Origin: Bacteroidota bacterium
Lineage (GTDB): Bacteria; Bacteroidota; Ignavibacteria; Ignavibacteriales; Melioribacteraceae
Direction: 5' to 3'
NCBI GenBank assembly: GCA_023381535.1
Contig: JAMCSN010000269.1
Span: 7,972-71,971 of the forward strand
Length of the DNA: 64,000 bases
The notes beneath the pieces are model-generated. The model saw nothing but the letters and a program-made list of their open reading frames with translations, made no database searches and was not told where the DNA came from. The first letter of the stretch is position 1. Every line of letters starts with the position of its first letter. Made by a program: the position numbers and the translations under genes. This document shows, in pieces, positions 9,126 through 62,394 of the stretch.

Positions 9126-10751
9126 TTAGAACCGGGTGTTCAAACCGCTATAGACGTGTAAGTAGCTTTGCTTTTCTTGAAACATTCCTTCGTAACTCAA
9201 TGTGAAAAATGTCGATGCCAGAACACGCCACGATAAGTCAATGGAAGCAATGGTCTGAATCAGCTTGGTAGAGCTTTGAGGGAAAGTGTAATCAGCCTTT
9301 CTGTACCCTAAACCAAGATTAAGATAACCGCCAAACAAGTCTTTGTTAATACTTCCGCCGTAATAACTTCCTTTTACGTACCCGTTTTCAATTCTGTTAT
9401 AATTTAGATAAAGCGAAGAATAAATTATCGGGAGCTGAATGTAACTTAGTGAGCCTCCGAAATTCCTTGACGGCTGCGGATCTGCCGCGCTGAAGCGGTA
9501 ATTGAAATTGGTGCTCAGCCATAAATTATTAACCGGTCTTAGATTCAATCTAACTCCCAAGCCCTGTCTTGTAGCCGAATCTAAAATACTATCGGCAATA
9601 TTCTTGAACGTTTCATAATAGACGACATTTCTTCTTGCATCGTAAGTTGCGCTTAAACTCAGCCAGTTGCTGGGGGTATAACTTGCCATGCAGAATATGC
9701 TCGACATATCAAAAACATTTTGCCCGACTCCTTTTTTGCGTTTGTACAACTCGAACTCCGATGAGAAAAACAAACCAAAACTTTGAGAAAAATTGCTAGT
9801 GTGTTGGAAGTACAAAAATCTTCTATCGGTTTTGAAATCGTTTGTCTGTTGAAATACGCCAACTGTGTTCTGCATGGACGTACTTGTTGAAAGACTGTCG
9901 TCTCTACTGATATAACCGCCGTACTCGAATAATTTTGCATTTAATCCGTAATTGGAGAAATCAGGTCGAGAACCAACAATCGCTCCGAGAGTAAATTTCT
10001 TGATTGCTGTTTCAAATTGAAGTCCGTCTATAGCGCCAAGACTTGAAGTTTTAGGATTAATTTTTCTGCCAAAAATCATACTGGTCTTTTTGCTGAATGC
10101 ATATTTGAACGCAAGATCATAAATTTTTATTGCATCACCCAAATGGCTCGTTACGCTAGCCCATTGATCTGCTCTGTAAACAAAATTAATGTAACTTGAA
10201 AACGATACCGGCGATCTAAACAGCGAGTCCGCATCCATCGATAAAGTGTAACGCCAGTTCTGAAGGTTTGCCAAACCGGGAGTGTTGGACATACTTGTGT
10301 AGGACGCAATCGAAAGTCTTCCGCTCACTCTTCTTGCAAACGCGCTTCCTTTTGATATTTTCAGCTTAGCCGGTGCCGGTATTAACTCCTGTGCAGGAAT
10401 CTTTTCTTCGGTTTTCATTTCTCCTTGAGCAGATTTTTCTTTCGTCTCAGTTTTCTCAACGATCACAGCGATCATGGGATCATTCACTTTCAGTTGAGTG
10501 CTTCCAATTAAAATTCCTGAACATGAATTTGACGAGACATACTTAACCAACACTGTAGGAACAAGTTTTTTATTCGAACGAACATATAACGTATCATTAG
10601 CCGAAATACCGTCGGTGTTTTCGAAACGGACGTAAATGTTTTGCGAAGTCAGAAATGTTACCTGACCGATTTTTCCCTTCTTAGCCGCAGTTTGGCCCAA
10701 AAGATTTATCTGAAATAAAACTACCACTAACAAAATGCTTCTCTTAACCAC
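9126..10751 (-). CDS. Predicted outer-membrane beta-barrel protein of the cytochrome operon
   Basis: 541 residues from a GTG at 10751 that overlaps the stop of the 37-heme gene and has GGAG about 9 bases upstream. This start gives a signal peptide (MVKRSILLVVVLFQINLLGQ). A longer in-frame start at 10829 would run deep into the upstream gene. After a ~90-residue small beta domain and a charged Glu/Lys linker, residues about 150-541 are alternating hydrophobic/polar strands rich in Tyr, Ser and Asn. The protein ends in Phe (GLNTRF), the usual outer-membrane assembly signal. It has no CXXCH. From context I infer a porin-like sleeve for the upstream cytochromes; no sequence similarity to MtrB is evident by eye. 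Confidence 0.75.
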   Translation of the reverse strand: MVKRSILLVVVLFQINLLGQTAAKKGKIGQVTFLTSQNIYVRFENTDGISANDTLYVRSNKKLVPTVLVKYVSSNSCSGILIGSTQLKVNDPMIAVIVEKTETKEKSAQGEMKTEEKIPAQELIPAPAKLKISKGSAFARRVSGRLSIASYTSMSNTPGLANLQNWRYTLSMDADSLFRSPVSFSSYINFVYRADQWASVTSHLGDAIKIYDLAFKYAFSKKTSMIFGRKINPKTSSLGAIDGLQFETAIKKFTLGAIVGSRPDFSNYGLNAKLFEYGGYISRDDSLSTSTSMQNTVGVFQQTNDFKTDRRFLYFQHTSNFSQSFGLFFSSEFELYKRKKGVGQNVFDMSSIFCMASYTPSNWLSLSATYDARRNVVYYETFKNIADSILDSATRQGLGVRLNLRPVNNLWLSTNFNYRFSAADPQPSRNFGGSLSYIQLPIIYSSLYLNYNRIENGYVKGSYYGGSINKDLFGGYLNLGLGYRKADYTFPQSSTKLIQTIASIDLSWRVLASTFFTLSYEGMFQEKQSYLHVYSGLNTRF

Positions 10752-13536
10752 CTGAACTCCCAGCCGGATGGCATGTATAGCAAGACGTTGCAGAATAGAC
10801 ATAACCGCTGACACCTTTATGATCTCCATCTACCTTTGTTTTGTCACTGTGTTCGTGACAATTAATACATGTAAAGACTTTAAAATTCGATTGATCCGTA
10901 TGACAATCCGAACATAGTGACCACTTGCCGTTATGTTTTCCGCTGTATATCGGGAAGTATTGTCCGTCGTGATTAAAAGTAGAAGGACTCCACGCCGTAG
11001 TGTTGTGGCATTGCTCACATGCGGTCGGGAATTGCGCCGACGCATGATTTGGATTTGTCGTGTTGTTGTAATTTGTTTTATGACATCCGTAACACGTGTT
11101 TGGCGTTTGGCCAACATTGTATCCCACCGTGTGACAACTTGCACATGCAACCGAAGTATGAGCGCCGGTTAACGGGAATGGTGTAGTAGAATGATTGAAA
11201 GTAGCACTCGTCCAATTTGTTGTAGAATGACATGTTTCGCACGTTGTTGGAAAGCCTGACGAAACGTGATTCGGGTTTGTCGTGTTGTTGTACGTAGTCT
11301 GGTGACAACCGTAACATGTGTTCGGTGTCTGACCGGCACTGTATCCAACAGTATGACAACTTGAACACGCTACCGAAGTATGGGCACCGGTTAACGGGAA
11401 CGGTGTTGTTGCATGATTAAACGTTGACGGCTGCCATGCTGTTGCTGAATGACATTGTTCGCACGTCGTCGGAATTTTTGACGTCGAATGATTCGGGTTC
11501 GTCGTGCTGTTATACGTAGTTTGATGACATCCGTAACACGTGTTTGGTGTTTGACCAACATTAAAACCAACAGTATGACAGCTTGCACAAGCAACCGTAG
11601 TATGCGCGCCGGTTAACGGGAACGGTGTTGTTGCATGATTAAACGTTGACGGCTGCCATGCTGTTGTTGAATGGCATTGTTCGCACGTCGTTGGAATTTT
11701 GGAGGTTGAGTGATTTGGGTTCGTCGTGTTGTTATACGTAGTTTGATGACATCCGTAACACGTGTTTGGTGTTTGACCAACATTAAAACCAACAGTATGA
11801 CAGCTTGCGCACTGAACAGTTGTATGCGCACCGGTTAACGGGAATGGCGTTGTTGAATGATCAAATGTTGCGCTTGTCCAAATAGTTGTTGAATGACACA
11901 TTTTGCAATCGGTTGGATAAGATTGAGCTGCATGATTTGGCGCAGAATTATATTTATCCTGATGACAGCTTATACAATCGGTGGATAATCCGGCTAACTT
12001 CGTTGCGTGACAAGTTTGACATGTTACATTAACATGCGCGCCCGTCAGAGGAAAAATTGTTGACCCATGGTTAAATGTAATCTGCTTCCAATCAACCGGA
12101 GTATGACATTCCTTGCAATCTTGCGGATAATTTTGAGCCGTATGATTTGGTGCCGTTGTATATTTTGCCTGATGGCATGAAACACATTCGGTCGATGTTC
12201 CGGCATAACCTGATGCGTGACATTGTTGACACGCTACATTTACGTGCTGTCCAACCAATGGAAAGTTTGTAAGCGAATGATCAATTACACCATCTTTACT
12301 TCCCTTTGGATGACATGCGTAACATGCTGTGCTCTGATAAACATATCCGTTGATACCGCTGTGATGAGAATCGGTATCTGCCTTGTTGTGTGTGTGACAA
12401 TTTATACATTCGAAAACTTTCAAGTTGCTTGAGTTGGTGTGACAATCCGAGCACAGACTCCATTGACCAAGATGTCTGCCGGAATAAATCGGGAAAAATT
12501 GCCCGTCATGATCAAACGTTGAGGGCTGCCATGCAACTGAAGTATGACATGTAGCGCAATCGGTCGAAAATCCGGCAGCTTTATGATTTGGATTCGTCGA
12601 GTTATCATAATTTGACTGATGGCATCCGACACATTCTTTCGGCGTTCCCGCATAACCTGCAGCGTGACATTTATTGCAGTCATTCCGAATCGCATTATGT
12701 GCACCGACAAGCGGATAGATCGAATCATGAATTGTAAATGTTGCCGGTTTCCAGCCTGGATCGGTTGTATGACACTGTTTGCAATCTTTCGGAAAATTCA
12801 AACTCATGTGATTCGGCGATGCAGTTGCTTCATAATTTTTTTGATGACATGAATAACATTCCTGAGTTAATCCTTTGTAAGTGGTTTGGGAATGACATTC
12901 AAAACAATTTGCTATTGCATGTCCTCCAACCAAAGGGAAAAATGAGTGAACTACCGTCGTCGTTGCCCAAACAGGTGAAGAAATTGAATGACATTGCTGG
13001 CAGTCTGTTGAGAACCCGCCTTGAACATGATTTGGATTCTGCGCAGACATGTAATTCGCCTGATGACAGTCATAACAACTAATCCCCAAAGGATCAAATC
13101 GTAATTTCGATGCCGACTTATGACACTGCGAGCAATCTGCTTTTGCATGGTTGCCCAACAAGGGAAATCTTCCCATCCGATGTATATCTGAAACATCCTC
13201 AACAATCCAAGTATTGGGACTATGGCATTTAGCACAATCGTTTCCAACAGTATTCTCGTGAATGTCTTTGTGGCAATTGTTACATGTTGTTTTTTCTTTT
13301 TGATCGCTGAATACTAAAGTCGGATGACATGATCGGCATTGAACGGTTTGATGCTGTCCGGCCAAATTGAATCCGGTCTCGCTGTGCTTAAACGTAATCT
13401 TAGCGGGAATTACTTTCCAATTTTCTTCGGAATGACATTGCTTACAATCGAGGTTAAAGTTTTTACCGTGTGGAGATTGTGCAAAGCTAACCGAAGAAAA
13501 AATCAGAAATACAATTAAGAGTGGCAGAGCGCGCAT
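10744..13536 (-). CDS. Giant secreted multiheme c-type cytochrome, 37 CXXCH motifs
   Basis: 930 residues with a signal peptide (cleavage after SFAQ near residue 20) and no later membrane segment, so periplasmic or surface exposed. I count 37 CXXCH heme-attachment motifs, about one per 25 residues. A recurring module has the form F-x-H-x(4)-FPL-x-G-x-H-x(4)-C-x-x-C-H; its extra histidines are candidate distal heme ligands. Four modules in the C-terminal half are near-identical 74-residue tandem repeats. The gene overlaps the 20-heme gene by 22 bp and the downstream barrel gene by 8 bp, so it is translationally coupled. The likely role is long-range electron transfer to or beyond the outer membrane; the acceptor cannot be read from sequence. 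Confidence 0.92.
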   Translation of the reverse strand: MRALPLLIVFLIFSSVSFAQSPHGKNFNLDCKQCHSEENWKVIPAKITFKHSETGFNLAGQHQTVQCRSCHPTLVFSDQKEKTTCNNCHKDIHENTVGNDCAKCHSPNTWIVEDVSDIHRMGRFPLLGNHAKADCSQCHKSASKLRFDPLGISCYDCHQANYMSAQNPNHVQGGFSTDCQQCHSISSPVWATTTVVHSFFPLVGGHAIANCFECHSQTTYKGLTQECYSCHQKNYEATASPNHMSLNFPKDCKQCHTTDPGWKPATFTIHDSIYPLVGAHNAIRNDCNKCHAAGYAGTPKECVGCHQSNYDNSTNPNHKAAGFSTDCATCHTSVAWQPSTFDHDGQFFPIYSGRHLGQWSLCSDCHTNSSNLKVFECINCHTHNKADTDSHHSGINGYVYQSTACYACHPKGSKDGVIDHSLTNFPLVGQHVNVACQQCHASGYAGTSTECVSCHQAKYTTAPNHTAQNYPQDCKECHTPVDWKQITFNHGSTIFPLTGAHVNVTCQTCHATKLAGLSTDCISCHQDKYNSAPNHAAQSYPTDCKMCHSTTIWTSATFDHSTTPFPLTGAHTTVQCASCHTVGFNVGQTPNTCYGCHQTTYNNTTNPNHSTSKIPTTCEQCHSTTAWQPSTFNHATTPFPLTGAHTTVACASCHTVGFNVGQTPNTCYGCHQTTYNSTTNPNHSTSKIPTTCEQCHSATAWQPSTFNHATTPFPLTGAHTSVACSSCHTVGYSAGQTPNTCYGCHQTTYNNTTNPNHVSSGFPTTCETCHSTTNWTSATFNHSTTPFPLTGAHTSVACASCHTVGYNVGQTPNTCYGCHKTNYNNTTNPNHASAQFPTACEQCHNTTAWSPSTFNHDGQYFPIYSGKHNGKWSLCSDCHTDQSNFKVFTCINCHEHSDKTKVDGDHKGVSGYVYSATSCYTCHPAGSSGG
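10980..11870 (-). repeat. Four tandem 222-bp repeats within the 37-heme cytochrome gene
   Basis: The landmark CCGGTTAACGGG recurs at 11165, 11387, 11609 and 11831, exactly 222 bp (74 codons) apart. Each unit encodes one PFPLTGAH...CxxCH...CYGCH...CxxCH block with three heme motifs. The two central units are the most alike at the DNA level. The outer boundaries given are approximate. The exact period and high identity point to recent unequal recombination, which would change heme number in steps of three. Confidence 0.9.
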
Positions 13537-15089
13537 TTTACCTCACCGAATTTATATTTAACATATCTGCCTTTTCCATCCACAACCGACTTGTGGCACT
13601 TGTAACAAGGTACTCCTGAATGCGCTCCTTCTAATGGAAATGCAGTTTTGCTGTGATCAAATAAATTCGGCTTCCAGTTGTCAAAGTTATGACATCTCCG
13701 GCAATTTGCAGTCCCATTTTCTGTGAACTGTCCCGCGTGAATATCTTTGTGACAGGTAAGGCATTCTGATTTTGTAATGAAGTCAATTTTTATACCGGCA
13801 CTTTCGTTTTTTGAAGTGTGACATTTATTGCAGTCTTGTTTTAAGTGCATTCCTAACAATTCATAACCGGTAATTTTGTGATCGAAAGTTACGGCATTCC
13901 ATTTTTCGGTTGAATGGCACAACTCACAATTTTGCCCGCTCTTTATTTTTCTTTCGATTGAATCGCCGTGAACGTTTTTGTGACAATTCAAACATTTTCT
14001 TCCTTCGATTCGGAATTGCCACTTCTCATTTTTCTGATGACAACTTTGGCAAGGAATAGCTAAATGACTTCCTGTAAGCACAAAACTCGTAGTGGAATGA
14101 CGCTGTATCGTGTACGACGTGAACAAAAAGTTTTCGACAGTGTGGCATTCGGAACAGTCGGTTAGAATATTATTCTTGGTAAACTCTCCTTTGTGATAAT
14201 CAGTATGGCAGCTGATGCATTTATCATACTTTGGTTTTACATTCAATCCGCCCTTGTGACAGTCCAAACATTTCACTTCAAGGTGTTTGCCAAGCAGCGG
14301 ATAGTTTGTTTTCGAGTGATCGAACCGGTCAATATTTTTTATCACCTTGAAAGATTCCGTTACGTGACACGAAGTACAATTGTTACCAAACTTTCCTTTA
14401 TGAAAATCTTGATGACACGGCGTGCAGTTTCCAAAATTTAGACCGGTAAATTTCTGAAAGTTTTTTCCGTTTCTTTGTTCCGTGATGTGACATTTGGCAC
14501 AATCAACTTTTTGATGCGCGCCGGTTAAAGCAAACTTTGCGGTTTTATGATCAAACTTTGAAGCCGGCTTGAATGAATCGTTTGTGTGACATTTTTGGCA
14601 GTTTGTCCCAAGTGTTACTTGATGCACATCGGCATGACAAGAATTACAAGAAGTGCTCAAACCAAGGTAAGTATTTTTCCGGTTTTTGATTTTTGAGTCG
14701 GCGATAAAATCCGCTTTATGACATTCGTTGCATTTCAGTTTTGCATGTTTGCCTACTAGCTCAAATCCGGTTTTAGAATGATTAAACCCGTCCGGATTGA
14801 AATTCACAATTCTAAAATTTCTGCCGTGGTGTTCGCTGTGGCATTCGCTGCATTTCTTCTGTAAAACTTCGGCGGTGCCGTGAAAACCGTTTCGGCTCTT
14901 TTGGCGGAGTCCAATTTCGGTATGACAGGCTAAGCATTCGTCGTTACGAATCTGGTTCCCAAGAGCGTGACACTTTGTGCAATTGCTCATGCCTTCGAGA
15001 TTTGCGTGGAAGGTTGTCAAATCCCCCGGAGATATTTGAGCTAGAACAGTTCCGAAAGAAATGCTCAGTAAGATTATGGTCAATATCAA
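13515..15089 (-). CDS. Secreted multiheme c-type cytochrome, 20 CXXCH motifs
   Basis: 524 residues with an N-terminal signal peptide ending near VLAQ (residue 18). I count 20 CXXCH motifs spread over the whole length. The same FDHSKT-x-FPL-x-G-x-H module as in the 37-heme protein appears about five times, so the two are related by duplication or shared modules, but here the copies have diverged. It is probably a soluble periplasmic carrier that bridges the inner-membrane module and the 37-heme protein. The start lies 2 bp after the oxidoreductase stop and the end overlaps the next gene by 22 bp. Maturation would need the Ccm or Ccs system, not in this window. Confidence 0.9.
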   Translation of the reverse strand: MILTIILLSISFGTVLAQISPGDLTTFHANLEGMSNCTKCHALGNQIRNDECLACHTEIGLRQKSRNGFHGTAEVLQKKCSECHSEHHGRNFRIVNFNPDGFNHSKTGFELVGKHAKLKCNECHKADFIADSKIKNRKNTYLGLSTSCNSCHADVHQVTLGTNCQKCHTNDSFKPASKFDHKTAKFALTGAHQKVDCAKCHITEQRNGKNFQKFTGLNFGNCTPCHQDFHKGKFGNNCTSCHVTESFKVIKNIDRFDHSKTNYPLLGKHLEVKCLDCHKGGLNVKPKYDKCISCHTDYHKGEFTKNNILTDCSECHTVENFLFTSYTIQRHSTTSFVLTGSHLAIPCQSCHQKNEKWQFRIEGRKCLNCHKNVHGDSIERKIKSGQNCELCHSTEKWNAVTFDHKITGYELLGMHLKQDCNKCHTSKNESAGIKIDFITKSECLTCHKDIHAGQFTENGTANCRRCHNFDNWKPNLFDHSKTAFPLEGAHSGVPCYKCHKSVVDGKGRYVKYKFGEVKCALCHS

Positions 15090-15091
15090 TC

Positions 15092-16429
15092 TTAATGTTT
15101 TAATACCGCCTCGCCGAATTTTTTAGTAATTGTAATTCCGATCTGTTCCAGAAACTTATTCGGCAGCTCGCCGCCGGCAAAAACATAAACCAAATCGTTC
15201 TTCATTTCCTCTTCAGTAGCAGAACCATTTTTCTGAGTTGAAAGAATTACCGATTCATCTTTTATTTCTTTTACGTTCGAATTGAAAACGAGGTTGACAA
15301 TTCTTTCTTCTGATGCCTTCTTAATCTTTTCATAATTGCCGGGTTTGATTCGCGAAAAAGATTCTCCGCGGTAAGAAAGCGTAACTCTGTTTTTTTCGTC
15401 GGCTAGCAAAAGAGCCGATTCGATTGCCGAATCACCGCCACCGACTACCAGCACGTCTTTGTTGTTTATCAGCTCCGGTTCAAGAAGTCTGTACATTACC
15501 TTTTCTTTATTCTCGCCGGGCACACCAAGCTTGCGCGGAGATCCCCTTCTACCTATTGCAAGAAGAACATTGGATGATGTTATGGCGCGCTGATTGGTTT
15601 GTATTGCAAAGTAATCCTGACACGGATTTATCGAAACAACTTTTTCACTTTCGCGAACGGCAATGTCGTTTTTGTTCAGCACCTCATGCCATAGACTAAG
15701 CAATTCTGTTTTTGATGTCTCAACAAGTTTCACTTTGCCGTACAACGGCAGGTACATTGGGGAAGTCATTACTATCTTAGCTCTCGGGAACGAATAAACT
15801 GTTCCGCCAAGCGTATCTTGTTCCAACGTTAAGAACTTAATATTTTTTTGTTTTGAAGTAAGCGATGCAGATATTCCCGCTGGACCGGCGCCAACGACTA
15901 CCAAGTCGTAATCCGGTTTAGTAGAGCGAACTAATTTTCGTGTGATGTTTTCAACGGCTTGTCTGCCCTGTTCAACCGCATTCTTTATCAAACCCATTCC
16001 GCCTAATTCACCCGCGATATAAATTCCCTTAACGCTGGTTTCAAAATCGGGGCTGATATGTGGCAGCTCAACACCTCTTTTTTCGGTACCAATCACAAGT
16101 GTAATCGCACCCAATGGACATGCATGAAAGCACGCACCGTGTCCCACGCATCGCGATGCATTGATTGTTACTGCCTTCCCGTGAACAATTCCAATGATAT
16201 CTTTTTCCGGGCAGGCAGTAATGCACGCACTGCTGCCGATACATGTGCTTAAACTTACTACTGGGTGAAGCGAGACTGGTTCGTGAAAGCCTAGTTCTTT
16301 AGCCTTCTCGATTTTTTTCTGAGAGACTTTGGTTTGTTTCTTGTTCTTCCTGAGATAAAAGAACATGATCACGGTGATCATTAGAAATACAAATCCATAC
16401 GATATGAGATTTTCTAAAGTGACTTCCAT
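15092..16429 (-). CDS. Membrane-anchored FAD/NAD(P)-dependent oxidoreductase fused to a two-cluster ferredoxin domain
   Basis: 445 residues. An N-terminal transmembrane helix (about 10-26) is followed by a bacterial ferredoxin-like domain (about 55-115) and a thioredoxin-reductase-like flavoprotein (about 175-440). The flavoprotein has GAGPAG (180-185, FAD) and a second VVGGGDSAIES nucleotide site (NAD(P)H). It lacks the CxxC redox pair of true thioredoxin reductases. The ferredoxin motifs are unusual: each has only three cysteines, with Ser66 and His97 where the second Cys normally sits (C63-S66-C69-C73 and C94-H97-C100-C104). It sits between the cytochrome b and cytochrome c genes, so a role in passing electrons between NAD(P)H or quinone and the hemes is inferred. 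Confidence 0.85.
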   Translation of the reverse strand: MEVTLENLISYGFVFLMITVIMFFYLRKNKKQTKVSQKKIEKAKELGFHEPVSLHPVVSLSTCIGSSACITACPEKDIIGIVHGKAVTINASRCVGHGACFHACPLGAITLVIGTEKRGVELPHISPDFETSVKGIYIAGELGGMGLIKNAVEQGRQAVENITRKLVRSTKPDYDLVVVGAGPAGISASLTSKQKNIKFLTLEQDTLGGTVYSFPRAKIVMTSPMYLPLYGKVKLVETSKTELLSLWHEVLNKNDIAVRESEKVVSINPCQDYFAIQTNQRAITSSNVLLAIGRRGSPRKLGVPGENKEKVMYRLLEPELINNKDVLVVGGGDSAIESALLLADEKNRVTLSYRGESFSRIKPGNYEKIKKASEERIVNLVFNSNVKEIKDESVILSTQKNGSATEEEMKNDLVYVFAGGELPNKFLEQIGITITKKFGEAVLKH

Positions 16430-16451
16430 TTACATGCATTACATTGTCTTT

Positions 16452-17327
16452 CTAAAATATCCAAGTATAACCGAATGCAACCGCAACGCCTACGTGAATC
16501 AACATGATTATCAGCATTACAAGCGCAAACGGAAGGTGAATAATATGCCAGTACTTAAAAATTCTTTGGACAGAATGTAACAGAATTATTCTTCGTGTCA
16601 ACACCAATTTCGATTTGCAAATTTTTATTATCTCATCAATGGATTTATGGGAGATGTTTCTTTTAATAAGTTCTTTTCTTATTTGATGAATCAGAGATGC
16701 GTTTTCAAAATAATCCTGAATTATGATTCCCATTACAGAAAAAAAACCGAGCGTTTTGTATGACTCGACCGATCTAAAATGATCCAGCCTTTTGAGCAGA
16801 TCATCCTGCAGATTATAATCTTTTCGTAGTGTTTCAGTATAACCAAAATTCAAGAGTTTTAGTTCATCCAACGAATATTCCTGCCCGTGTATTGATCTCG
16901 GAATCTGAATGTAAATAAACCTTCCGACAACACCGCTTACAACTACAGCCACCATACTCCAAAAACTAACGGCAACTATTCCGCCAAATTTAAAAGATGT
17001 GTGATAGAGAACTAATATAGGACCAACGCTGCAAAGAAAAATATGCATTTCAAGCCAGTGCTTCAGAAGTCCCAGTCTTAACATCTTGCGGGATCTTTTT
17101 CTTACCATGTACATAGCGACGCCAAGTAACATCATTATGGAACCGATGATACCAAAGCCATGGCCTAGTAAGCCGCTCGGTTTCAGCAATTTGTCCAGTG
17201 GGTTAAAAAAACGATCCTCGTAAGGAGTCAAATAGTAATGGTATCCATAAATTCCAACTGCTATTAATACGAACGATCCTACTAATAGTAAAATTGACAG
17301 GTAGATTCGGTGCTGAACTTTAGTCAT
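16452..17327 (-). CDS. Integral membrane cytochrome b-like protein
   Basis: 291 residues with about five predicted membrane segments (near 11-31, 54-75, 91-110, 113-138 and 264-286). Histidines positioned in or beside helices (H56 in GHGFG, H90 and H95 in HWLEMH, H109 in LYH, H264 and H278 in the last helix) could ligate two b hemes. A soluble ~110-residue segment separates the last two helices. It is the first gene of the electron-export operon, 22 bp ahead of the oxidoreductase, and is the natural candidate for exchanging electrons with the quinone pool. A specific family (b561, NarI or ferric-reductase type) cannot be fixed by eye. Confidence 0.75.
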   Translation of the reverse strand: MTKVQHRIYLSILLLVGSFVLIAVGIYGYHYYLTPYEDRFFNPLDKLLKPSGLLGHGFGIIGSIMMLLGVAMYMVRKRSRKMLRLGLLKHWLEMHIFLCSVGPILVLYHTSFKFGGIVAVSFWSMVAVVVSGVVGRFIYIQIPRSIHGQEYSLDELKLLNFGYTETLRKDYNLQDDLLKRLDHFRSVESYKTLGFFSVMGIIIQDYFENASLIHQIRKELIKRNISHKSIDEIIKICKSKLVLTRRIILLHSVQRIFKYWHIIHLPFALVMLIIMLIHVGVAVAFGYTWIF

Positions 17328-46722: not shown

Positions 46723-47376
46723 TCAGTCGGTCTTAATCATTTTACTTTCTTCGGTGTAATTCACAGACTCCGGATTTTGCAGATGGATAAGTTCGTTTAC
46801 GAATTTCTTGATGCGTTCGACCGATTCTTTCAATGTGGCAATATCTTCCCCTAGTTTTTTCTTCTCAGCTTCTTTCAACTCATTTTCGATATTGCCGAAT
46901 GAAAGCAAAAGACTGCTGAGCGGATTATTTATTTTATGACCGATTGTGCATGCCATTTCCACAACGGCTTTCGAATATTCGATATTTTTTAATTCGGATT
47001 GCAAATTAAAAATTCTAATACCGGATCTGATTCTTGCGAGCAGCTCTTGATTCTCGACGGGCTTAACAAGAAAATCATCTGCGCCAACGTCCAACCCCAT
47101 GATTCGATCTTTCAGCGAGGAGCGTGCGGTAAGAATTATAAAATAAACCAGCTTATACTTATCATCGCTCTTAAGAATATTGCATAGAGCCAATCCATCC
47201 AGTACAGGCATCGTCCAATCTGCAACAATCACTTTCGGTTCAAACTTTTTAAGAACTTCCAAAGCGTCCTGTCCGTTCAGCGCCGTCATAACATCGTAGT
47301 TATTTCTAAGAAGAAGTTTCTCAAGAATGAAGCGCGTGTCTTTTTCATCTTCTACAACTAAAACTTTATCTTTCAT
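46723..47376 (-). CDS. Response regulator fused to an H-box stub without kinase domain
   Basis: 217 residues from the ATG at 47376 (a TTG three codons upstream is possible). Residues 1-120 are a receiver domain with D10, phosphoacceptor D53, LTA Thr and VKP Lys. Residues about 130-205 look like a HisKA two-helix hairpin with an H-box-like TIGHKINNPL (H147) and then a charged helix, but there is no ATP-binding domain. It might be phosphorylated in trans, act as a histidine phosphotransferase, or just dimerise. It overlaps the preceding REC gene by 11 bp. Confidence 0.85.
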   Translation of the reverse strand: MKDKVLVVEDEKDTRFILEKLLLRNNYDVMTALNGQDALEVLKKFEPKVIVADWTMPVLDGLALCNILKSDDKYKLVYFIILTARSSLKDRIMGLDVGADDFLVKPVENQELLARIRSGIRIFNLQSELKNIEYSKAVVEMACTIGHKINNPLSSLLLSFGNIENELKEAEKKKLGEDIATLKESVERIKKFVNELIHLQNPESVNYTEESKMIKTD

Positions 47377-47773
47377 TTTGACCAAACACTAATTTGTTAA
47401 TCTTTTCGACAAGTTTATTATAGTCTGCAATCGGCTTTAAAAGGTAATCATCCGCCATGCTTTTCTCAAGAAGCGGGTCTCCAAATCCGCTTAACGGATA
47501 TGCTGTGACAAGCAAAATAGGAACCTTTAGATGCGCATAATTTTTTTTAATATGTTGAGACAACATGATACCGTCAATCCTTTTTGAAAAAAGCATCATG
47601 TTTCTAAGATTAATATCCAATATTATCAAATCAACATTACCGCTGTGAAGTTCGCGAAGTATTTCATCTACATCTTCCATAATCAACACTTCGGCGCCGA
47701 ATCTCTTGAAGAAAATTCTGTAGAAGTCTTGAAGAAAGACGTCATCTTCGACTATAATTACTTTTTTCAGCAT
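47366..47773 (-). CDS. Single-domain response regulator (REC only)
   Basis: 135 residues. Receiver features: EDD (10-11), phosphoacceptor D53 in LIILDIN, VTA Thr and LLKPI Lys. A short insertion after D53 (RNMMLFSKRIDG) lengthens the loop next to the active site compared with most receivers. It starts one base after the motB stop, so it is coupled to stator expression. Confidence 0.9.
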   Translation of the reverse strand: MLKKVIIVEDDVFLQDFYRIFFKRFGAEVLIMEDVDEILRELHSGNVDLIILDINLRNMMLFSKRIDGIMLSQHIKKNYAHLKVPILLVTAYPLSGFGDPLLEKSMADDYLLKPIADYNKLVEKINKLVFGQNER

Positions 47774-47774
47774 G

Positions 47775-48545
47775 TTATTTGGATTTAAATTTTACCGTTA
47801 TACTTATTCTTCTGTTGATAAAGCTGAACGGATTCTTTTTGTCTCTCAATCTGGTATCTGCGTAACCGTGAATTTCGTCAATTTGTTTCTCAGGCAATCC
47901 GCCCTCAACCAAAGCCCGTTTTGCAGCAAGAGCTCTTTCCGCGCTAAGTTCAAAATTTGTAAAGCCGGTTCCTTTGTTGTTAAACTGACGGGCATCGGTA
48001 TGCCCTTCAACAATTATTTTGTTGGATAACTTCGCAATTTCCAAACCGATTTTCTCTATCAATTTTTTTGCCTTCGCTTTCAACTCGGACGTTCCGATTT
48101 CAAAGAAAAGATCATTTGCGTTGTCAACCAATTCTATTCTCATTCCGTCCTGCGTCATTTGAATTTCAATTTGATGAGAGAATCCCAAAAGGTCGGTATC
48201 GGCTTTTAAATCATCCAATAGTTTTTTAGCCATCTTGTTGAATTCTTCCTTTTCGGCTTCCTTTCTTCTTTTTTCCTCTTCGGATTGAAAGCCTATTGAC
48301 GACAACTGCCCTTTACCGTCTATCAAATTTTTTGTTTTGCTGCTGAAGCCGATAGGGTCTTTAAAATATTCCGCAACAGCCCTTTGAACTGCTTCGCTTT
48401 GACTAAGCACCCAAAGAACAATAAACAATGCCATCATTGCAGTTACAAAATCTGCGTAAGCAACTTTCCACGCGCCTCCGTGGTGACCGCCGCCGCTTTT
48501 CTTAATTTTTTTTACTACGGGAGAAGATTCAGTCGTGCTTTCCAT
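47775..48545 (-). CDS. motB: MotB-type stator protein (set 1)
   Basis: 256 residues. A basic Gly/His-rich cytoplasmic tip leads into one TM helix with AYADFVTAMMALFIVLWVL; the ion-binding Asp is D32, the same number as in E. coli MotB. A linker with a coiled segment precedes the OmpA-like peptidoglycan-binding domain (about 130-255; EGHTDARQF, NFELSAERALAAKRAL). The TM sequence resembles proton-driven enterobacterial MotB. It overlaps the motA stop by one base (TAATG). Confidence 0.92.
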   Translation of the reverse strand: MESTTESSPVVKKIKKSGGGHHGGAWKVAYADFVTAMMALFIVLWVLSQSEAVQRAVAEYFKDPIGFSSKTKNLIDGKGQLSSIGFQSEEEKRRKEAEKEEFNKMAKKLLDDLKADTDLLGFSHQIEIQMTQDGMRIELVDNANDLFFEIGTSELKAKAKKLIEKIGLEIAKLSNKIIVEGHTDARQFNNKGTGFTNFELSAERALAAKRALVEGGLPEKQIDEIHGYADTRLRDKKNPFSFINRRISITVKFKSK

Positions 48546-49405
48546 TATTTTCCCTTTTTATTTCTCAATGCGGCTTCAAGTTCTTGGAAAGTCGGTCTCT
48601 CGTCGGAAAAAATTGTTCTGCGTGCAATTTCTGCCGCAACAAACGGCGGGTTGCCTTTTGAATAAGCAAGTATATAAGATTTTATGATTTGCAAATCTTG
48701 AACCTTCTCTTCAACTATGAGTCCAATGTTTGCAGCAATAGGATTTACAAATCCGTACGAGAGAAGAACACCAAGAAAAGTCCCGACCAATGCTGCGGCT
48801 ACATGATGACCGACAGTTTCAGCGCCTTCGCTGATTGACGCCATCGTAACAATGATGCCGAGAACCGCGGCAACAATACCGAGACCGGGTAATGAATCTC
48901 CAACTCTGTTCAGTCCTTCCGAGATAGGTTTGTGTTCTTTTTCAAAAGTTTCAATCTCCGAATCCATCAGCGATTCAAGCTCATGCGGCGGAACAGAACT
49001 TGCAAGCATTACTTTCATCGTGTCGCAGAAAAAATTTCTCCGGTATGCATCATCTGCGAATCTTGTTGCCTTTTTCAAGATTTCGCTTTTCTCCGGGTTT
49101 TCGATATGCTTTTCAATCGCCAGTAATCCTTCGCGCTGAGCGATGAAAAAAAGTTCGCTGAACGCTTTCAACATCTGGATGTAATCTTCTTTCGTATTCG
49201 GCTTATGCGAAAAAGTTTGAGGTATGTAGCCCGCAATTTTTTTCAGCAAAGGTAGAGGAGAAGCAATCAGCAAACTTCCGATTGCGGCACCGCCAATCGT
49301 TATGAATTCAGCTATCTGGATCAATAAAATTAGGTTGCCGCCGCCAAATGTGAACCCGCCTATAACAGCCAGTATTACTATTACAATTCCGATTATTACG
49401 AACAT
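48545..49405 (-). CDS. motA: MotA-type stator protein (set 1)
   Basis: 286 residues, close to E. coli MotA. Four TM helices: two at the N-terminus (about 3-22 and 32-52) and two in the MotA/TolQ/ExbB region (about 160-182 and 192-215; LPGLGIVAAVLGIIVTM, AALVGTFLGVLLSYG) with conserved prolines. The cytoplasmic loop carries charged residues that contact FliG. With MotB it forms the ion channel that drives rotation. Its start overlaps the end of the REC-HPt gene by 10 bp. Confidence 0.93.
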   Translation of the reverse strand: MFVIIGIVIVILAVIGGFTFGGGNLILLIQIAEFITIGGAAIGSLLIASPLPLLKKIAGYIPQTFSHKPNTKEDYIQMLKAFSELFFIAQREGLLAIEKHIENPEKSEILKKATRFADDAYRRNFFCDTMKVMLASSVPPHELESLMDSEIETFEKEHKPISEGLNRVGDSLPGLGIVAAVLGIIVTMASISEGAETVGHHVAAALVGTFLGVLLSYGFVNPIAANIGLIVEEKVQDLQIIKSYILAYSKGNPPFVAAEIARRTIFSDERPTFQELEAALRNKKGK

Positions 49406-50130
49406 AGTGTTGTCCTGGTTACGTGCTGAGATTCAATTTGCGATAAGCTTTGCAGCAGCGCTTCACATTTAGAGTTTATATCCACCCATGTTTTTGCCGG
49501 GTCATCAATTACAGTTTCCAGCTCCACACACTGATCGGTAATGTTGGCAAAACCGGCCGTTCCGCCGGAACCTTTCAGCTCATGAATAACCAGTTTCAGT
49601 AATTCCTTATTGCGGTGGTTTAATGATTGTCTTATCGATTCTTTTTTTGTAACGAGCGAACTAATAAAAAATCTTTTAACCTCTCTCAAAAATTGTTCTT
49701 TCTCTGTTGCAGAGAACGACGCATTTTTTTTCGTGCTCACAAGAAATGTTTTACCGAGTACATCGTCAATCGCTTTAATCATCGATTCCTTAGACAGCGG
49801 CTTAGACACAATTTTTTCTGCGCCGGCTTCCATTGCTGCCACTACGTTGTCTTTATTGGTGTGCCCGCTAATTACTATCACCGGAATCTGTTTAACATTT
49901 TCGAGAACTTTTAATACGCGCAGCATTTTTATTCCGTCCAGGTTCGGCATCATGAGATCTAAAATAATCAACTGCGGTTTGTACTCAACCGCTTTCTGCA
50001 AACCTTCCAGCCCGTCGTTGCAAGTAAATACGTCAATATTGTAGTCGGAGAGAAACTTCTTCAAGGAATTTCGAATCACATCCGAATCATCGATTACAAG
50101 TATCTTCACCTTGTCGTTTTCAACATTCAT
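49396..50130 (-). CDS. REC-HPt phosphorelay protein
   Basis: 244 residues. The receiver domain (about 8-128) has D14/D15, phosphoacceptor D58 (LILDLMMP), ISGHT and VSKPLS. A helical HPt domain (about 145-230) contains HELKGSGGTAG with phosphoacceptor H183. Such a fusion can pass phosphate from a kinase through Asp to His and on to another receiver; two REC genes and a kinase lie within 6 kb in the same run. It sits between csrA and motA. Confidence 0.88.
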   Translation of the reverse strand: MNVENDKVKILVIDDSDVIRNSLKKFLSDYNIDVFTCNDGLEGLQKAVEYKPQLIILDLMMPNLDGIKMLRVLKVLENVKQIPVIVISGHTNKDNVVAAMEAGAEKIVSKPLSKESMIKAIDDVLGKTFLVSTKKNASFSATEKEQFLREVKRFFISSLVTKKESIRQSLNHRNKELLKLVIHELKGSGGTAGFANITDQCVELETVIDDPAKTWVDINSKCEALLQSLSQIESQHVTRTTLCS

Positions 50131-50134
50131 AACT

Positions 50135-50368
50135 TTATACTTTTTTGATTTTATACTTTATTAAATCGACCGGCGGCTGCAGCTTTGTTTGCGAAGCTTG
50201 GATGGTATTTTCCTTCACCTTTTCGTAAATCTCTCCTCGCAAAATTTGGATGCTCTTTGCAGCTTCAATTCCGATCTTAACCTGGTTTTCGGAAATGGAA
50301 ATAATCTTTACCGTAATTTCCGTACCCAGTTTGATTTCTTCGTTTATTTTTCTCGTTAGAACTAGCAT
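50135..50368 (-). CDS. csrA: CsrA, post-transcriptional regulator
   Basis: 77 residues. Complete CsrA sequence: MLVLTRKINEEIKLG, ITVKIISISENQVKIGIEAAKSI, LRGEIYEKVKENT. The key RNA-binding residues (Leu4, Arg6 and the second R-G-E-I-Y segment) are present. It forms a domain-swapped dimer that binds GGA hairpins and blocks translation or alters stability. It lies 4 bp after fliW. The flagellin leader in this window carries a matching site. Confidence 0.96.
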   Translation of the reverse strand: MLVLTRKINEEIKLGTEITVKIISISENQVKIGIEAAKSIQILRGEIYEKVKENTIQASQTKLQPPVDLIKYKIKKV

Positions 50369-50372
50369 AGTA

Positions 50373-50753
50373 TTATTCTGTAAATAAGTTATAGTCTATT
50401 TGATATTTGTCTGAATCAAGAATTTTTTGAACTCCCTTTTTATCCTCTTGGTTGATGTAAACGGGAGCTTTCAGATTGACCGTGATTTTCTTCGGATCGG
50501 CATTGAGAACAACAATCCCGAAAGCCTCGAAGTTTTCTTCTTGCGGGTAGCGTTCGTCAATTACCCGCATACCGAACATCGGGAAAGCAATGTCCGGATT
50601 GTCAATCGAGTTAAGCCAGTAGAAAAGACTGTCGTCGGGTTTGATAAACAAATATTTCTTAAGCTCTTCAAAACCGAAGAGACCTTTTTCGAACGTGATT
50701 ATTTTGTCTTCGGGAAATTCAATCTCCCCGAACCTGTATGTTTTTAGTTTCAT
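50373..50753 (-). CDS. fliW: FliW, CsrA antagonist and flagellin-binding assembly factor
   Basis: 126 residues. FliW signatures: FGEIEFPEDKIITFEKGLFGFEELKKYLFI, then the PDIAFPM and VVLNADPKKITVNLKAPV segments. It binds free flagellin or CsrA, so excess flagellin releases CsrA to shut down flagellin translation. It lies 6 bp after the second motB and 4 bp before csrA. Confidence 0.93.
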   Translation of the reverse strand: MKLKTYRFGEIEFPEDKIITFEKGLFGFEELKKYLFIKPDDSLFYWLNSIDNPDIAFPMFGMRVIDERYPQEENFEAFGIVVLNADPKKITVNLKAPVYINQEDKKGVQKILDSDKYQIDYNLFTE

Positions 50754-50759
50754 ATCAAC

Positions 50760-51569
50760 TCACTTAAGAATTACTAAATCTACTCTTCTATTTTTTGCCC
50801 GGTTTTCAGGTGTATCGTTCGGCGCAATCGGACGGTACTCGGCATAGCCGAGTATCGAAACCTTATCCGGATCAAGTCCGTCTTCCTTTATTAAATAGTA
50901 CGCTGTGCTCAGCGCGCGGTCCACCGATAAATGCCAGTTTGAAGGATACCGCGCCGTGTTAATCGGCACATTATCAGTATGACCTTCAATGCGAATATCG
51001 TTCGGAATATCTTTAATAACTTTCGCCAGTCTATCGAGCACCGTTCTTGAATTTTCATTTAAGCCGGCTTGAGCTGGCGCAAAAAGCACTTCATCCAAAA
51101 TATGAACCGTTATACCTTTTTCGTTTTCTTCAAGCTGAATTGTATTTGAGTAATTATATTCTTTAATCAACCGGTTAAGTTGAGTGCCCAGCGTTTCTTT
51201 TGGTCCGATGGAAGCGGTTTTCAATTCGGGCGCCGGATTTATTACCGCTTCATTTCCAAAATAGTTTCCCAAAGCGTGCGCTACATTTTTGTATTTCGCA
51301 GCATCAATTTTCGAGATTGCATAAAGGATAATAAAAAAACCCAACAGCAAAGTGATGAGATCAGAATATGTTATAAGGTATCTGTCCTCATCGTTTTTTT
51401 CCGGGAAAAGATTTTCTTCGGAGCTTAGGCTGCCAATCTGCCTTGCTGGTCTCTTTGCGGCAACATTCCTACCAATCTTGCTTTCATGATTGACGGGATT
51501 TCCCCGCTCTGTAATGTCAGCACCGCTTCCAAAGAAATCTCCATCATATTTTTTTCCTCTAAATGACAT
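50760..51569 (-). CDS. motB: MotB-type stator protein (set 2)
   Basis: Up to 269 residues. The TM helix is YLITYSDLITLLLGFFIILYAIS with the ion-binding Asp; an OmpA-like domain follows (about 165-268; EGHTDNVPI, NWHLSVDRALSTAYYL, NRRVDLVI). The only ATG/GTG/TTG start in frame is at 51569, but that makes a 145-bp overlap with the conserved end of motA. A start near the ATT at 51437 would give the normal ~20 residues before the helix. The coordinates given use the ATG; the true N-terminus is unsettled. This TM sequence differs from set 1 and is closer to Bacillus MotB/MotS types. Confidence 0.85.
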   Translation of the reverse strand: MSFRGKKYDGDFFGSGADITERGNPVNHESKIGRNVAAKRPARQIGSLSSEENLFPEKNDEDRYLITYSDLITLLLGFFIILYAISKIDAAKYKNVAHALGNYFGNEAVINPAPELKTASIGPKETLGTQLNRLIKEYNYSNTIQLEENEKGITVHILDEVLFAPAQAGLNENSRTVLDRLAKVIKDIPNDIRIEGHTDNVPINTARYPSNWHLSVDRALSTAYYLIKEDGLDPDKVSILGYAEYRPIAPNDTPENRAKNRRVDLVILK

Positions 51570-52204
51570 CTCTTTAATCTATCACCAATTGGTAACCAAA
51601 GTAAATTTGCGCTGAATACTCCCCACAATGTTGCGATGAACGCAGTTGCAATGCTTTGAATCAAAACATTGGGGTCTGTGCCGGCATTTGCGAGCGTTAT
51701 AATCAAACCCATAACGGTTCCGATAATACCCATCGTTGGAGCGTAGCCGCCCATTTTTGTAAATATCTGAATATTGGAAAAATGTCTTTCCTGCATTGCC
51801 TTAAGTTCCAGCTGCGCAAGAATCTGCAATGATTCGCCGTCGGTTCCGTCAAGAGCAAACTTCGTCATTTTTCGAGGGAACAGATAATCGAACTTCTTCA
51901 AATCTCTTTCTATCGAAAGTATTCCCTCTCTTCTTGCCTTCATCGAAAGTTCGACAAATGTATTAATCAGTTTTTCGATATTGTAAGTCTTGGGGAAATA
52001 TGCCAGCTGAATCAGTTTATAAACATTTGAGAATTTATCTAAGCCGAAGCCGATTATTACCGCCGAAAAAGTTCCTCCGAAAACAATTATCAAAGATGAA
52101 AGGATAAACAATGCGCGAAGCGACCCGCCTTCAAAAAGGAAGGAGCCGAAAATGGAGAAGACACCAATAATTAACCCGAATGTTGTGCCGAATTTTTTTA
52201 TCAT
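51425..52204 (-). CDS. motA: MotA-type stator protein (set 2)
   Basis: 259 residues, the shorter PomA/Bacillus MotA-like form. Four TM helices: about 5-24 and 30-50, then about 148-170 (GGYAPTMGIIGTVMGLIITL) and 180-205 (ATAFIATLWGVFSANLLWLPI). Cytoplasmic segment MKARREGILSIERDL is typical of the family. It overlaps flgL by 4 bp upstream and, depending on the MotB start, 13-145 bp downstream. Confidence 0.92.
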   Translation of the reverse strand: MIKKFGTTFGLIIGVFSIFGSFLFEGGSLRALFILSSLIIVFGGTFSAVIIGFGLDKFSNVYKLIQLAYFPKTYNIEKLINTFVELSMKARREGILSIERDLKKFDYLFPRKMTKFALDGTDGESLQILAQLELKAMQERHFSNIQIFTKMGGYAPTMGIIGTVMGLIITLANAGTDPNVLIQSIATAFIATLWGVFSANLLWLPIGDRLKRCHLEEKNMMEISLEAVLTLQSGEIPSIMKARLVGMLPQRDQQGRLAA

Positions 52205-53079
52205 AAATAATCGATCAGAGATTTTGGTAAGACGTTTGACAATATTTTATTAGATACTTGAAGCAAATAATCTTGCTGCTGAAGATCAACCACAAGCTTT
52301 GCGGTATCGATACCTTGTACCTTTGTCAGCATTGCTTGATAGTTATCCGACTGATTTTGCAGCAAATCGTGAATGTTCTGAAACCGATTTATTTTCGCAC
52401 CGTTTTCAGATTGCACATTTAGCAACGCATTATACGCAGTACTTAGATCGTTCAATTGTGTTTGAGTTGGAGCGTTACCACCTACGAGCGAATCTATAAT
52501 GTTGTTAACCGCGGTAAAAATTCCTGTACCGGATATTTTTGTACTGGGGATGTTAATTGTTTCAGTAACGTTATCAGAAAGTCTTAGCTTAACTTCTCCG
52601 GAATGATCAGTTGCAGAAACAACAGCTTTTCCGTTTACGTCTATCGAAACCGGATCATCGGAATAGTTGGTTCCTCCGAACAAATACATTCCGTTCTGTT
52701 TTGTATTAACGTTGTTAACAATTGCCGCCAGCGAATCTTTTATCGATTGAGCAATCGAACCGTAGTTCGAAGAATTCAAAGCATTCACAGCACTGTTCGA
52801 TGAACTAATTATGTTTTGAAGTTGGGTAGTAATTTGATCAAGTGAATTAAGCGACGACTGCATGAAGCTGGTTGCGCTGTCGGCATTTTTTATATATGAC
52901 AAAGTCTTGTTGTTCTGCGAATTCAACCTAATCGAATCCAGTGCGCCGGAAACATCGTCCGAGACATTCAAAATCTTGGTGTTTGCCGCAAGCTGAGATT
53001 GTATTTGAACTTCCTTCTGCGCAACTTTATCGTGGTTGTAGAGATATTGATCGGTCATCATTCCTTCGGTAACTCTCAT
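52201..53079 (-). CDS. flgL: FlgL, hook-filament junction protein (HAP3)
   Basis: 292 residues. Flagellin-like ends are present: N-terminal MRVTEGMMTDQYLYN with a helical segment to ADSATSFMQSSLNSLDQI, the NGMYLFGGT motif typical of FlgL near residue 130, and a C-terminal helix (LQQQDYLLQVSNKIL). It joins the hook to the filament together with FlgK. It lies 12 bp after flgK. Confidence 0.93.
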   Translation of the reverse strand: MRVTEGMMTDQYLYNHDKVAQKEVQIQSQLAANTKILNVSDDVSGALDSIRLNSQNNKTLSYIKNADSATSFMQSSLNSLDQITTQLQNIISSSNSAVNALNSSNYGSIAQSIKDSLAAIVNNVNTKQNGMYLFGGTNYSDDPVSIDVNGKAVVSATDHSGEVKLRLSDNVTETINIPSTKISGTGIFTAVNNIIDSLVGGNAPTQTQLNDLSTAYNALLNVQSENGAKINRFQNIHDLLQNQSDNYQAMLTKVQGIDTAKLVVDLQQQDYLLQVSNKILSNVLPKSLIDYL

Positions 53080-53091
53080 GATGCTACTCCG

Positions 53092-54483
53092 TTAAAACAT
53101 GTTTAATAATGTTTGGATCATATCGTCAGCTATCTTAATCATTTTTGCCGCAGCGTCGTAAGACCTTTGGTATTTCATAATATTCGTCATCTCTTCGTCA
53201 ATGGATACGCCTGAATAAGATTGTTTTTGCGTTTTAAGATTCAGCATAATCGTATTGTCGGATTGCACTTCATTATCACTCCGATTTTTATCCAGTCCGA
53301 TGCTGTTAAGTATCGAAGAATAACCGTCGCCAAAAGAAAGGTTGTTCAGTTCGGGAAATTTTGTGTTCACCAAGTCTGCAATCTTGTTGGAAACATTACT
53401 GTTGCCGTCGGCGCCCTGCACATCCGAAGCCGCTATGTTTCCGGGATCTGCAAGAATAGAAGAATTAATTTTCAGTTCACCGTCAACAACCGCATTAACC
53501 ACGCCGGAAGGACCGACTTCACCAAAAAATGGAATTCCGTTTGTCGAAGCTCCCGTGGTTGAAAGCGTGTATCCTTGCGTGTGAAGTTCATTCACTTTGG
53601 AAACAAAAGTATTTTCAAGATTTTCCAAATTGCTCAGGTAACCAGGAATCTTGTTCGAATAAAGATCCGAGAGAGCATTGAACTGACCGGAATTAACAAC
53701 CGCAACGGAGTTTGTATCGTTAACAGATACAAGGCGAAGCTGACCGTTTATATTTGCCAGTTGGAACTGATTGTAGCCTGATTGATCGGCACCGTAAGAA
53801 CCGCCAACATTTACCTGAACCGCACCGGAATCACTTTTCTGAACAGAGACATTCACAAGCTGACTTAATTGATCTATCAAAGAATCTCTTTGATCTTCAA
53901 GCTCGCTTGCTTTCACTCCCCGCGATTGAGCATCGTAAACCTGAAGATTCAAATCATGAATCTGTTTTAAGTAGCCGTTGATTTGATCGACCGTAGAATT
54001 CGCCTGCTGTTGTACCGAATATTGTATATAGGTGAGGCCGTCAACAGTCTGCTTGAATCTTTGACTTAGGTTTTGTGCTTTCTGAACTACATTCAATCTT
54101 AACTGTGAAGAAGTAGGGTTGGCGGATAATTCATTCCACGAGTTGAAGAAATCCGTAATGCCGGCAGATATGCCCGTGCTGGAAGGTTCTCCGGTGAGCG
54201 CTTCAATCTGCTGCAATACTTCCGATCTTTTGCCTGCATCGGAAAATGTTGATTGGTATTTTCTTATTTGAGTATCGAGAACATCTTGGCGAATGCGCTG
54301 CACATCCTGAACGTTTACACCTGCACCCTTTCCGTCAATATTCGATTCCGATGCAAGAACAACGCGCTGACGCGTATAGTCGGGATTTCCGGCATTTGAA
54401 ATATTATTGGACGATACACTAATGGCTTCTTGATAAGCGCTCATTGTCCGGACCGATATGTCAAACAATCCGCCGATACCCAT
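53092..54483 (-). CDS. flgK: FlgK, hook-filament junction protein (HAP1)
   Basis: 463 residues. The N-terminal rod/hook signature SVSSNNISNAGNPDYTRQRVV, the GAGVNV segment, and the C-terminal SGVSIDEEMTNIMKYQRSYDAAAKMI are typical of FlgK. Mid-region residues form the variable domain. It is the first junction protein added after hook completion. It lies one base after the flgN stop. Confidence 0.94.
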   Translation of the reverse strand: MGIGGLFDISVRTMSAYQEAISVSSNNISNAGNPDYTRQRVVLASESNIDGKGAGVNVQDVQRIRQDVLDTQIRKYQSTFSDAGKRSEVLQQIEALTGEPSSTGISAGITDFFNSWNELSANPTSSQLRLNVVQKAQNLSQRFKQTVDGLTYIQYSVQQQANSTVDQINGYLKQIHDLNLQVYDAQSRGVKASELEDQRDSLIDQLSQLVNVSVQKSDSGAVQVNVGGSYGADQSGYNQFQLANINGQLRLVSVNDTNSVAVVNSGQFNALSDLYSNKIPGYLSNLENLENTFVSKVNELHTQGYTLSTTGASTNGIPFFGEVGPSGVVNAVVDGELKINSSILADPGNIAASDVQGADGNSNVSNKIADLVNTKFPELNNLSFGDGYSSILNSIGLDKNRSDNEVQSDNTIMLNLKTQKQSYSGVSIDEEMTNIMKYQRSYDAAAKMIKIADDMIQTLLNMF

Positions 54484-54484
54484 T

Positions 54485-55752: not shown

Positions 55753-55753
55753 A

Positions 55754-56851: not shown

Positions 56852-56859
56852 TTTCATTC

Positions 56860-58077: not shown

Positions 58078-58084
58078 TTCAAGA

Positions 58085-58885: not shown

Positions 58886-58896
58886 TTATAGCTCCT

Positions 58897-62388: not shown

Positions 62389-62394
62389 ATTTTC

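Follow-up and report, generated by a model that had tools for sequence, protein, structure and literature searches.

The conduits closest to the locus analysed here combine a barrel with multiheme cytochromes to cross the outer membrane. In MtrCAB, MtrA and MtrC carry 10 hemes each and MtrB has 28 predicted strands (available passages of PMC5566968 and PMC4245776). The Geobacter-type Pcc systems (OmbB-OmaB-OmcB) are credited, in the available passages of PMC4245776, with porins of 18-22 predicted strands, a periplasmic partner of 5-14 hemes and an outer partner of 1-15, and OmbB-like and MtrB-like clusters have both been attributed to the Ignavibacteria (passages of PMC7399161, PMC4245776 and PMC6137239). 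PCC3, a system of iron bacteria, comprises, according to the available passages of He et al. (2017; PMC5566968), a porin, two very large cytochromes and an inner-membrane protein of approximately 300 residues, and is found in Alpha-, Beta- and Gammaproteobacteria; the inner-membrane protein has two WX3HX13H motifs and SGXXG, was likened by these authors to the FRE/NOX proteins and was proposed to exchange electrons with quinones. In the Gallionellaceae the periplasmic cytochrome of PCC3 is given as carrying 21, 24 or 27 hemes and the extracellular one 10-35 (passages of PMC10734462), and PCC3 was termed functionally unverified in 2025 (passages of PMC12442390).

PCC3 is the closest described system to a set of five genes found in the window, by which is meant the whole 64,000-nucleotide stretch of DNA analysed, and whose named close relatives are MAGs of the Bacteroidota, Ignavibacteriales and Melioribacteraceae. 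The five ORFs all lie on the minus strand (17327 to 9126; Table 1) in the order cytb-FAD-MHC20-MHC37-barrel, with CXXCH counts of 0, 0, 20, 37 and 0, a sum of exactly 57, and with intergenic gaps, as called, of 22, 2, -22 and -86 nt; this agrees with an initial annotation, which had proposed a tightly spaced and partly overlapping cluster of five genes with 57 heme motifs. We consider it probable that these genes encode a PCC3-like trans-envelope conduit of the Bacteroidota with a cytosolic flavin/Fe-S input, taking electrons from NAD(P)H or a ferredoxin and probably running outwards.

Table 1. Features of the five-gene set, in window coordinates.
Feature	Position	Strand	Basis
cytb: inner-membrane di-heme cytochrome b-like protein, 291 aa	16452..17327	-	ORF, alignment, motifs, relatives
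cytb WX3HX13H motif 1 (W91, H95, H109), predicted b-heme ligands	17001..17057	-	invariant columns
cytb WX3HX13H motif 2 (W260, H264, H278), predicted b-heme ligands	16494..16550	-	invariant columns
FAD: membrane-anchored NAD(P)H-type flavin/Fe-S oxidoreductase, 445 aa	15092..16429	-	family matches, alignment, hydropathy
FAD Fe-S sites C63-S66-C69-C73 and C94-H97-C100-C104 (second Cys replaced by His)	16118..16243	-	alignment
FAD segment like the C-terminal FAD-binding stretch of TrxR-like enzymes, ahead of GAGPAG; possible circular permutation	15914..16096	-	weak profile evidence
MHC20: exported cytochrome, 20 CXXCH, 524 aa	13515..15089	-	motif count, signal peptide, alignment
MHC20/MHC37 overlap, 22 nt	13515..13536	-	ORF coordinates
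MHC37: exported cytochrome, 37 CXXCH, 930 aa	10744..13536	-	motif count, signal peptide
MHC37-internal tandem array, 222-bp unit (74 residues, three hemes), 3.8 copies, 83% matches	11045..11898	-	DNA repeat analysis
Barrel ORF, called at 567 aa; start probably the GTG at 10751 (541 aa)	9126..10829	-	ORF and alignment
Barrel protein N-terminal small beta domain (residues 50-124), presumably periplasmic	10458..10682	-	AlphaFold2
Barrel domain, 22-stranded (residues 168-566)	9132..10328	-	AlphaFold2, structural neighbours

The distribution of the set was examined in two samples. When species genomes were scanned with an alignment of cytb from the window and 24 of its 120 listed relatives, 506 relatives were confirmed; among the best 80 of these 506, on which the analysis was carried out, 79 bore titles of Bacteroidota, Chlorobiota or Ignavibacteria-group organisms and one (L053) was titled simply as a 'bacterium'. 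Fifty-two loci, the window and an Emticicia plasmid included, had at least 8.2 kb downstream of cytb, and all five genes stood together in 47 of them, 42 in the window's order, four with an additional third cytochrome ORF and one (L067) with FAD last; at three of the other five the set was not found intact (L012, L034, L039) and at two the fetched sequence ends (L038, L054). In the second sample, an even draw of 395 Bacteroidota genomes, cytb was found in 41 (in G112 as a weak fragment only), and the 33 genomes with a barrel match were without exception cytb genomes (hypergeometric 6.7e-41, kinship ignored), so that none of the 354 draw genomes without a cytb match had a barrel match. In eight cytb genomes the barrel was not matched, and some of these may lack the gene; the one inspected, G354, has a divergent barrel (E 2e-7). 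Twenty of the 41 loci, hand-picked as mainly unseen ones with a barrel match and including only G354 from the eight, were fetched, and 18 were complete, seven with the gene order of the window and 11 arranged cytb-MHC20-MHCn-barrel-FAD; one of the remaining two ends with its contig (L115) and in the other (L109) the set is broken, with the barrel some 20 kb away. No complete locus, whether among the 47 of the first set or the 18 of the second, lacks the FAD gene. The five genes are thus a conserved unit whose co-conservation across the phylum is beyond chance, and the neighbourhood proposed initially recurs in two gene orders, with barrel and cytochrome genes side by side. Cultured hosts are Maribellus sediminis and Emticicia oligotrophica DSM 17448, whose plasmid pEMTOL02 bears a complete copy; the Emticicia record annotates the genes as 'hypothetical protein' and 'cytochrome c3 family protein'. 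Directly ahead of the plasmid operon stands a gene with ResB and Cytochrom_C_asm domains (L081:8899-11985), and this copy may therefore travel with its own heme-attachment machinery.

The two cytochromes differ in how far they vary. Among 79 loci, the first carries 20 hemes in 67, 23 in nine, 19 in two and 26 in one, a count from which L023, L071 and L073 (split or short ORFs) and L052 and L064 (a smaller cytochrome first) are omitted. A complete 20-heme MHC20 was available from 52 loci and 49 were aligned, L002, L018 and L029 being left out by hand; none of the 20 CXXCH motifs varies, and outside them exactly 20 His reach a conservation of 98% or above, a number which fits bis-His ligation of 20 hemes. 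All 40 Cys of MHC20 and all 74 of MHC37 lie within CXXCH motifs. The AlphaFold2 model of MHC20 is irregular (pLDDT 76.7, pTM 0.41), gave no convincing structural match and is too uncertain for a straight-wire shape to be claimed.

In contrast to the first cytochrome, the second ranges from 10 to 61 hemes over 66 loci with a complete ORF (L023, L052, L064, L071 and incomplete ORFs omitted, and L114 entered by hand as 19). The counts are of the form 3k+1 in 48 loci, 3k in 14 and 3k+2 in four (chi-square p 3e-11, kinship ignored), with some noise from a few loci in which this position is split over two ORFs, and in the window the triheme unit is visible in the DNA itself as the tandem array of MHC37 (Table 1). 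Cytochrome ORFs overlap by 19, 22 or 25 nt in 58 of 65 two-cytochrome loci. Variability of cytochrome size is not in itself new, since the larger partner in Burkholderiales varies by insertion or deletion of CXXCH domains and gain or loss in pairs or multiples has been suggested for Chloroflexi cytochromes (passages of PMC7399161). The constancy of the first cytochrome and the freedom of the second may reflect, respectively, a fixed gap, the periplasm, and an open end outside the cell.

MHC20 and MHC37 carry ordinary signal peptides with neither a lipobox nor the long C-terminal tail suggestive of type IX secretion; these features offer no explanation of how the two would reach the surface and weigh against the conduit. 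Plain signal peptides of this kind, together with the capacitor role suggested for large multiheme cytochromes (passages of PMC10734462 and PMC7399161), would also suit a periplasmic electron store or buffer, with both cytochromes inside the outer membrane, no electrons reaching the outside, and the barrel a porin for something else. We regard this as very unlikely, as the barrel was matched in none of the draw genomes that lack a cytb match and the two cytochromes behave as if under different spatial limits.

The existence of a barrel, claimed initially from the sequence, was borne out by structure prediction: the AlphaFold2 model (mean pLDDT 80.6, pTM 0.59) has 22 strands between residues 168 and 566 and its solved structural neighbours are outer-membrane barrels. 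Neither Pfam nor NCBIfam gave a match to this protein. The terminal Phe, also remarked upon at the outset, falls in a column that shows at least 90% conservation across an alignment of 30 sequences. The ORF probably starts later than called, at the GTG at 10751, because this start leaves an 8-nt overlap and gives the same beginning (MVKR) as in the relative P0122.

A barrel with multiheme cytochromes, here presumed to cross the outer membrane, is a feature shared with MtrCAB and MtoAB, and MHC20 and MHC37 weakly resemble the DmsE/MtrA model TIGR03508 (43.8 and 38.8 bits, under the cut-off of 192.2). However, 20 and 37 hemes and 22 strands stand against the 10, 10 and 28 of MtrCAB, and membership of that group was rejected on the 20 hemes, the score of 43.8 bits and the 22 strands. 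The strand number does fall within the 18-22 of the Geobacter-type porins, as the available passages describe OmbB, whereas the presumed counterpart of their periplasmic partner, with 20 hemes, lies outside the range of 5-14. Some of the reported Ignavibacteria clusters may, on comparison by description alone, be this five-gene set.

At the inner membrane, both WX3HX13H motifs and SGXXG are present in 25 of 25 aligned cytb sequences, in keeping with the original 'cytochrome b-like' assignment. No Pfam or NCBIfam family was matched above its cut-off; PF01794, the ferric reductase/NOX transmembrane domain, gave no match and DUF4405 alone appeared below its cut-off (E 0.029). A simple hydropathy scan found four membrane segments (8-26, 53-71, 116-134 and 267-285), as opposed to the five transmembrane helices of the PCC3 protein in the published passages, but the stretch H95-H109 fell under the threshold and a fifth segment is likely around it. 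Ahead of the last helix lies a loop of 132 residues with 21 K/R against 14 D/E; this basic character suggests a cytoplasmic location, and one b heme may thus sit near each membrane face. Two HX13H pairs, one per helix, with a cytosolic flavin NAD(P)H domain feeding them are reminiscent of FRE/NOX; here, however, PF01794 is unmatched, and the flavin domain belongs to a protein of its own, which is TrxR/YpdA-like and has Fe-S sites.

A profile search with cytb also retrieved shorter, plasmid-borne homologues from Alteromonas, Methylophaga, Variovorax, Acetobacter, Bradyrhizobium (two) and Pontibacter, these seven scoring 26 to 59 bits as against 358 for Emticicia. In the four of the seven that were scanned, the flavin-type neighbour combines FAD_binding_6, NAD_binding_1 and Fer2. 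On the plasmids of L082-L087 the three-gene sets consist of a 2Fe-2S/FAD reductase, the short homologue and a cytochrome c3-type or hypothetical gene; they have no annotated barrel and several are near heavy-metal or copper resistance genes.

The flavin/Fe-S subunit matches Fer4 and Pyr_redox in Pfam and has one N-terminal hydrophobic segment by hydropathy (residues 8-26), so the membrane-anchored FAD/Fe-S protein of the initial annotation stands. An alignment of 84 relatives, 79 of them distinct in sequence, shows His at the second-Cys position of a ferredoxin in the second Fe-S site of 84 of 84, and the same holds for 19 of 19 later loci; the corresponding position of the first site is Ser or Thr in 79 of 84, Cys in four and Val in one, and among the later loci is Cys in all 11 with FAD last. 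The best PDB match is Bdr (7a7b, E 2.9e-26), and the relatives are YpdA/Bdr and thioredoxin reductases, although the score against the YpdA family TIGR04018 (164.6 bits) is under the curated cut-off of 339.9. The FAD and NAD(P) domains are common to all of these; Bdr uses NADPH. The subunit differs from them by its membrane helix and two Fe-S sites, by the lack of a redox CxxC (C270, the seventh Cys, is isolated), and by a segment like the FAD-binding end which has apparently moved to the front, ahead of GAGPAG. The profile evidence for this last point is weak (best E 0.0056), and a circular permutation of the enzyme appears likely from the sequences.

In the conduit we propose, NAD(P)H or a ferredoxin would reduce the membrane-anchored FAD enzyme, the Fe-S sites of which would release electrons singly to the cytoplasmic-side b heme of cytb (H95/H264), from where they would pass to the periplasmic-side heme (H109/H278). 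MHC20 would then act as a periplasmic wire of fixed length, handing electrons to the second cytochrome, variable in length and held in or threaded through the 22-stranded barrel, which would present its hemes outside. Genes, motifs, heme numbers, the predicted barrel and co-inheritance are direct results of this analysis; formation of a complex, ligation of the hemes, surface exposure, donor, acceptor and direction are what we infer from them. Outward flow is favoured, since the potential of NAD(P)+ is too low for its direct reduction by donors such as Fe(II). NAD(P)H is preferred to quinol as the presumed donor mainly because cytb pairs repeatedly with two kinds of NAD(P)H reductase.

The published motifs and quinone hypothesis for the PCC3 inner-membrane protein (passages of PMC5566968) lend themselves to a different arrangement, in which cytb would exchange electrons with the menaquinone pool, possibly inwards with oxidation of Fe(II) or Mn(II), and the flavoprotein would be an accessory or second entry. 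A relative is indeed found in the MAG Mn-Melioribacter-1 (L004), the name of which, however, says nothing about activity. We judge this arrangement unlikely: a spare accessory would vanish more often than a gene kept in every complete locus of both sets, and the shorter cytb homologues pair with another type of NAD(P)H reductase. Of the route from NAD(P)H/quinone to the surface put forward initially, the trans-envelope conduit survives as the best reading, and neither a non-barrel model of the last protein nor a barrel apart from the cytochrome genes, outcomes that would have spoken against it, was observed; NAD(P)H over quinol is our own preference.

A bolder version of the NAD(P)H-fed conduit, which we advance only tentatively and hold to be doubtful, is a quinone-independent NAD(P)H-to-surface reductase. 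Here a circularly permuted, membrane-anchored FAD enzyme with a Cys3His [4Fe-4S] site would feed a NOX-like di-heme cytb, a 20-heme 'ruler' spanning the periplasm and a surface cytochrome whose reach would evolve by gain and loss of triheme cassettes; electrons might even be split at the two Fe-S sites, some going to a low-potential carrier and others to the outward wire. Were this true, a phylum seldom counted as electroactive would possess a widespread outlet for redox balancing or respiration.

By description and motifs the five-gene set appears PCC3-like, both in composition (porin, large and presumably periplasmic cytochrome, larger variable cytochrome and inner-membrane protein of about 300 aa) and in the motifs that the window's cytb shares with those published. 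Heme numbers are comparable, 20, 23 or 26 (19 at two loci) and 10-61 in the Bacteroidota set against 21, 24 or 27 and 10-35 in the Gallionellaceae. The claim that the system was unlike those already named thus holds for MtrCAB and the Geobacter Pcc, from which it differs in heme numbers and inner-membrane module, but PCC3 is a precedent. Relative to the available passages on PCC3, the gene order differs, the barrel has 22 predicted strands rather than the up to 42 reported, so that the large-porin trait is not shared, the hosts are Bacteroidota rather than Proteobacteria, and the flavin/Fe-S gene with its invariant Cys3His site has no counterpart in the descriptions (PMC5566968), from which Bacteroidota hosts are likewise absent. 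Among the titles, abstracts and passages covered, with subscription papers and preprints outside this scope, no paper describing the five-gene set was found.

If the proposed conduit is correct, roughly one in ten of the Bacteroidota genomes sampled (cytb 41/395; barrel 33/395) has an electron outlet that is almost without annotation, and the functionally unverified PCC3 idea would reach another phylum with a defined electron input. Cultured hosts would be at hand for tests in Maribellus sediminis and in Emticicia oligotrophica with pEMTOL02, and the constant 20-heme partner with a second cytochrome that varies in triheme steps offers a natural series on how wire length is set and used.

Several further observations were made around these loci. 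Matches to MHC20 included similar cytochromes on many Sphingobium plasmids, adjoining DUF1622 genes. Between cytb and FAD in L005, L011, L013, L049 and L060, and absent from the window, is a protein of approximately 200 aa with an N-terminal hydrophobic segment, of which the copy in L011 matches TPR families, though TPR_CcmH_CycH stays under its cut-off; comparably sized ORFs come after cytb in L119 and L128. Downstream of the barrel of the complete operon in L114 are a gene for a cytochrome with 34 hemes and another cytb-like ORF, which is short (195 aa, E 4e-12), and upstream of cytb in L008 a 529-aa ORF with 20 CXXCH lies divergently on the opposite strand. The third cytochrome ORF of L054, cut by the end of the locus, has at least 62 CXXCH, the highest count in this analysis. 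Elsewhere in the window, ORFs at 47366-63279 resemble, by eye, what we take to be a flagellar and motor gene cluster, and the host is therefore probably motile.
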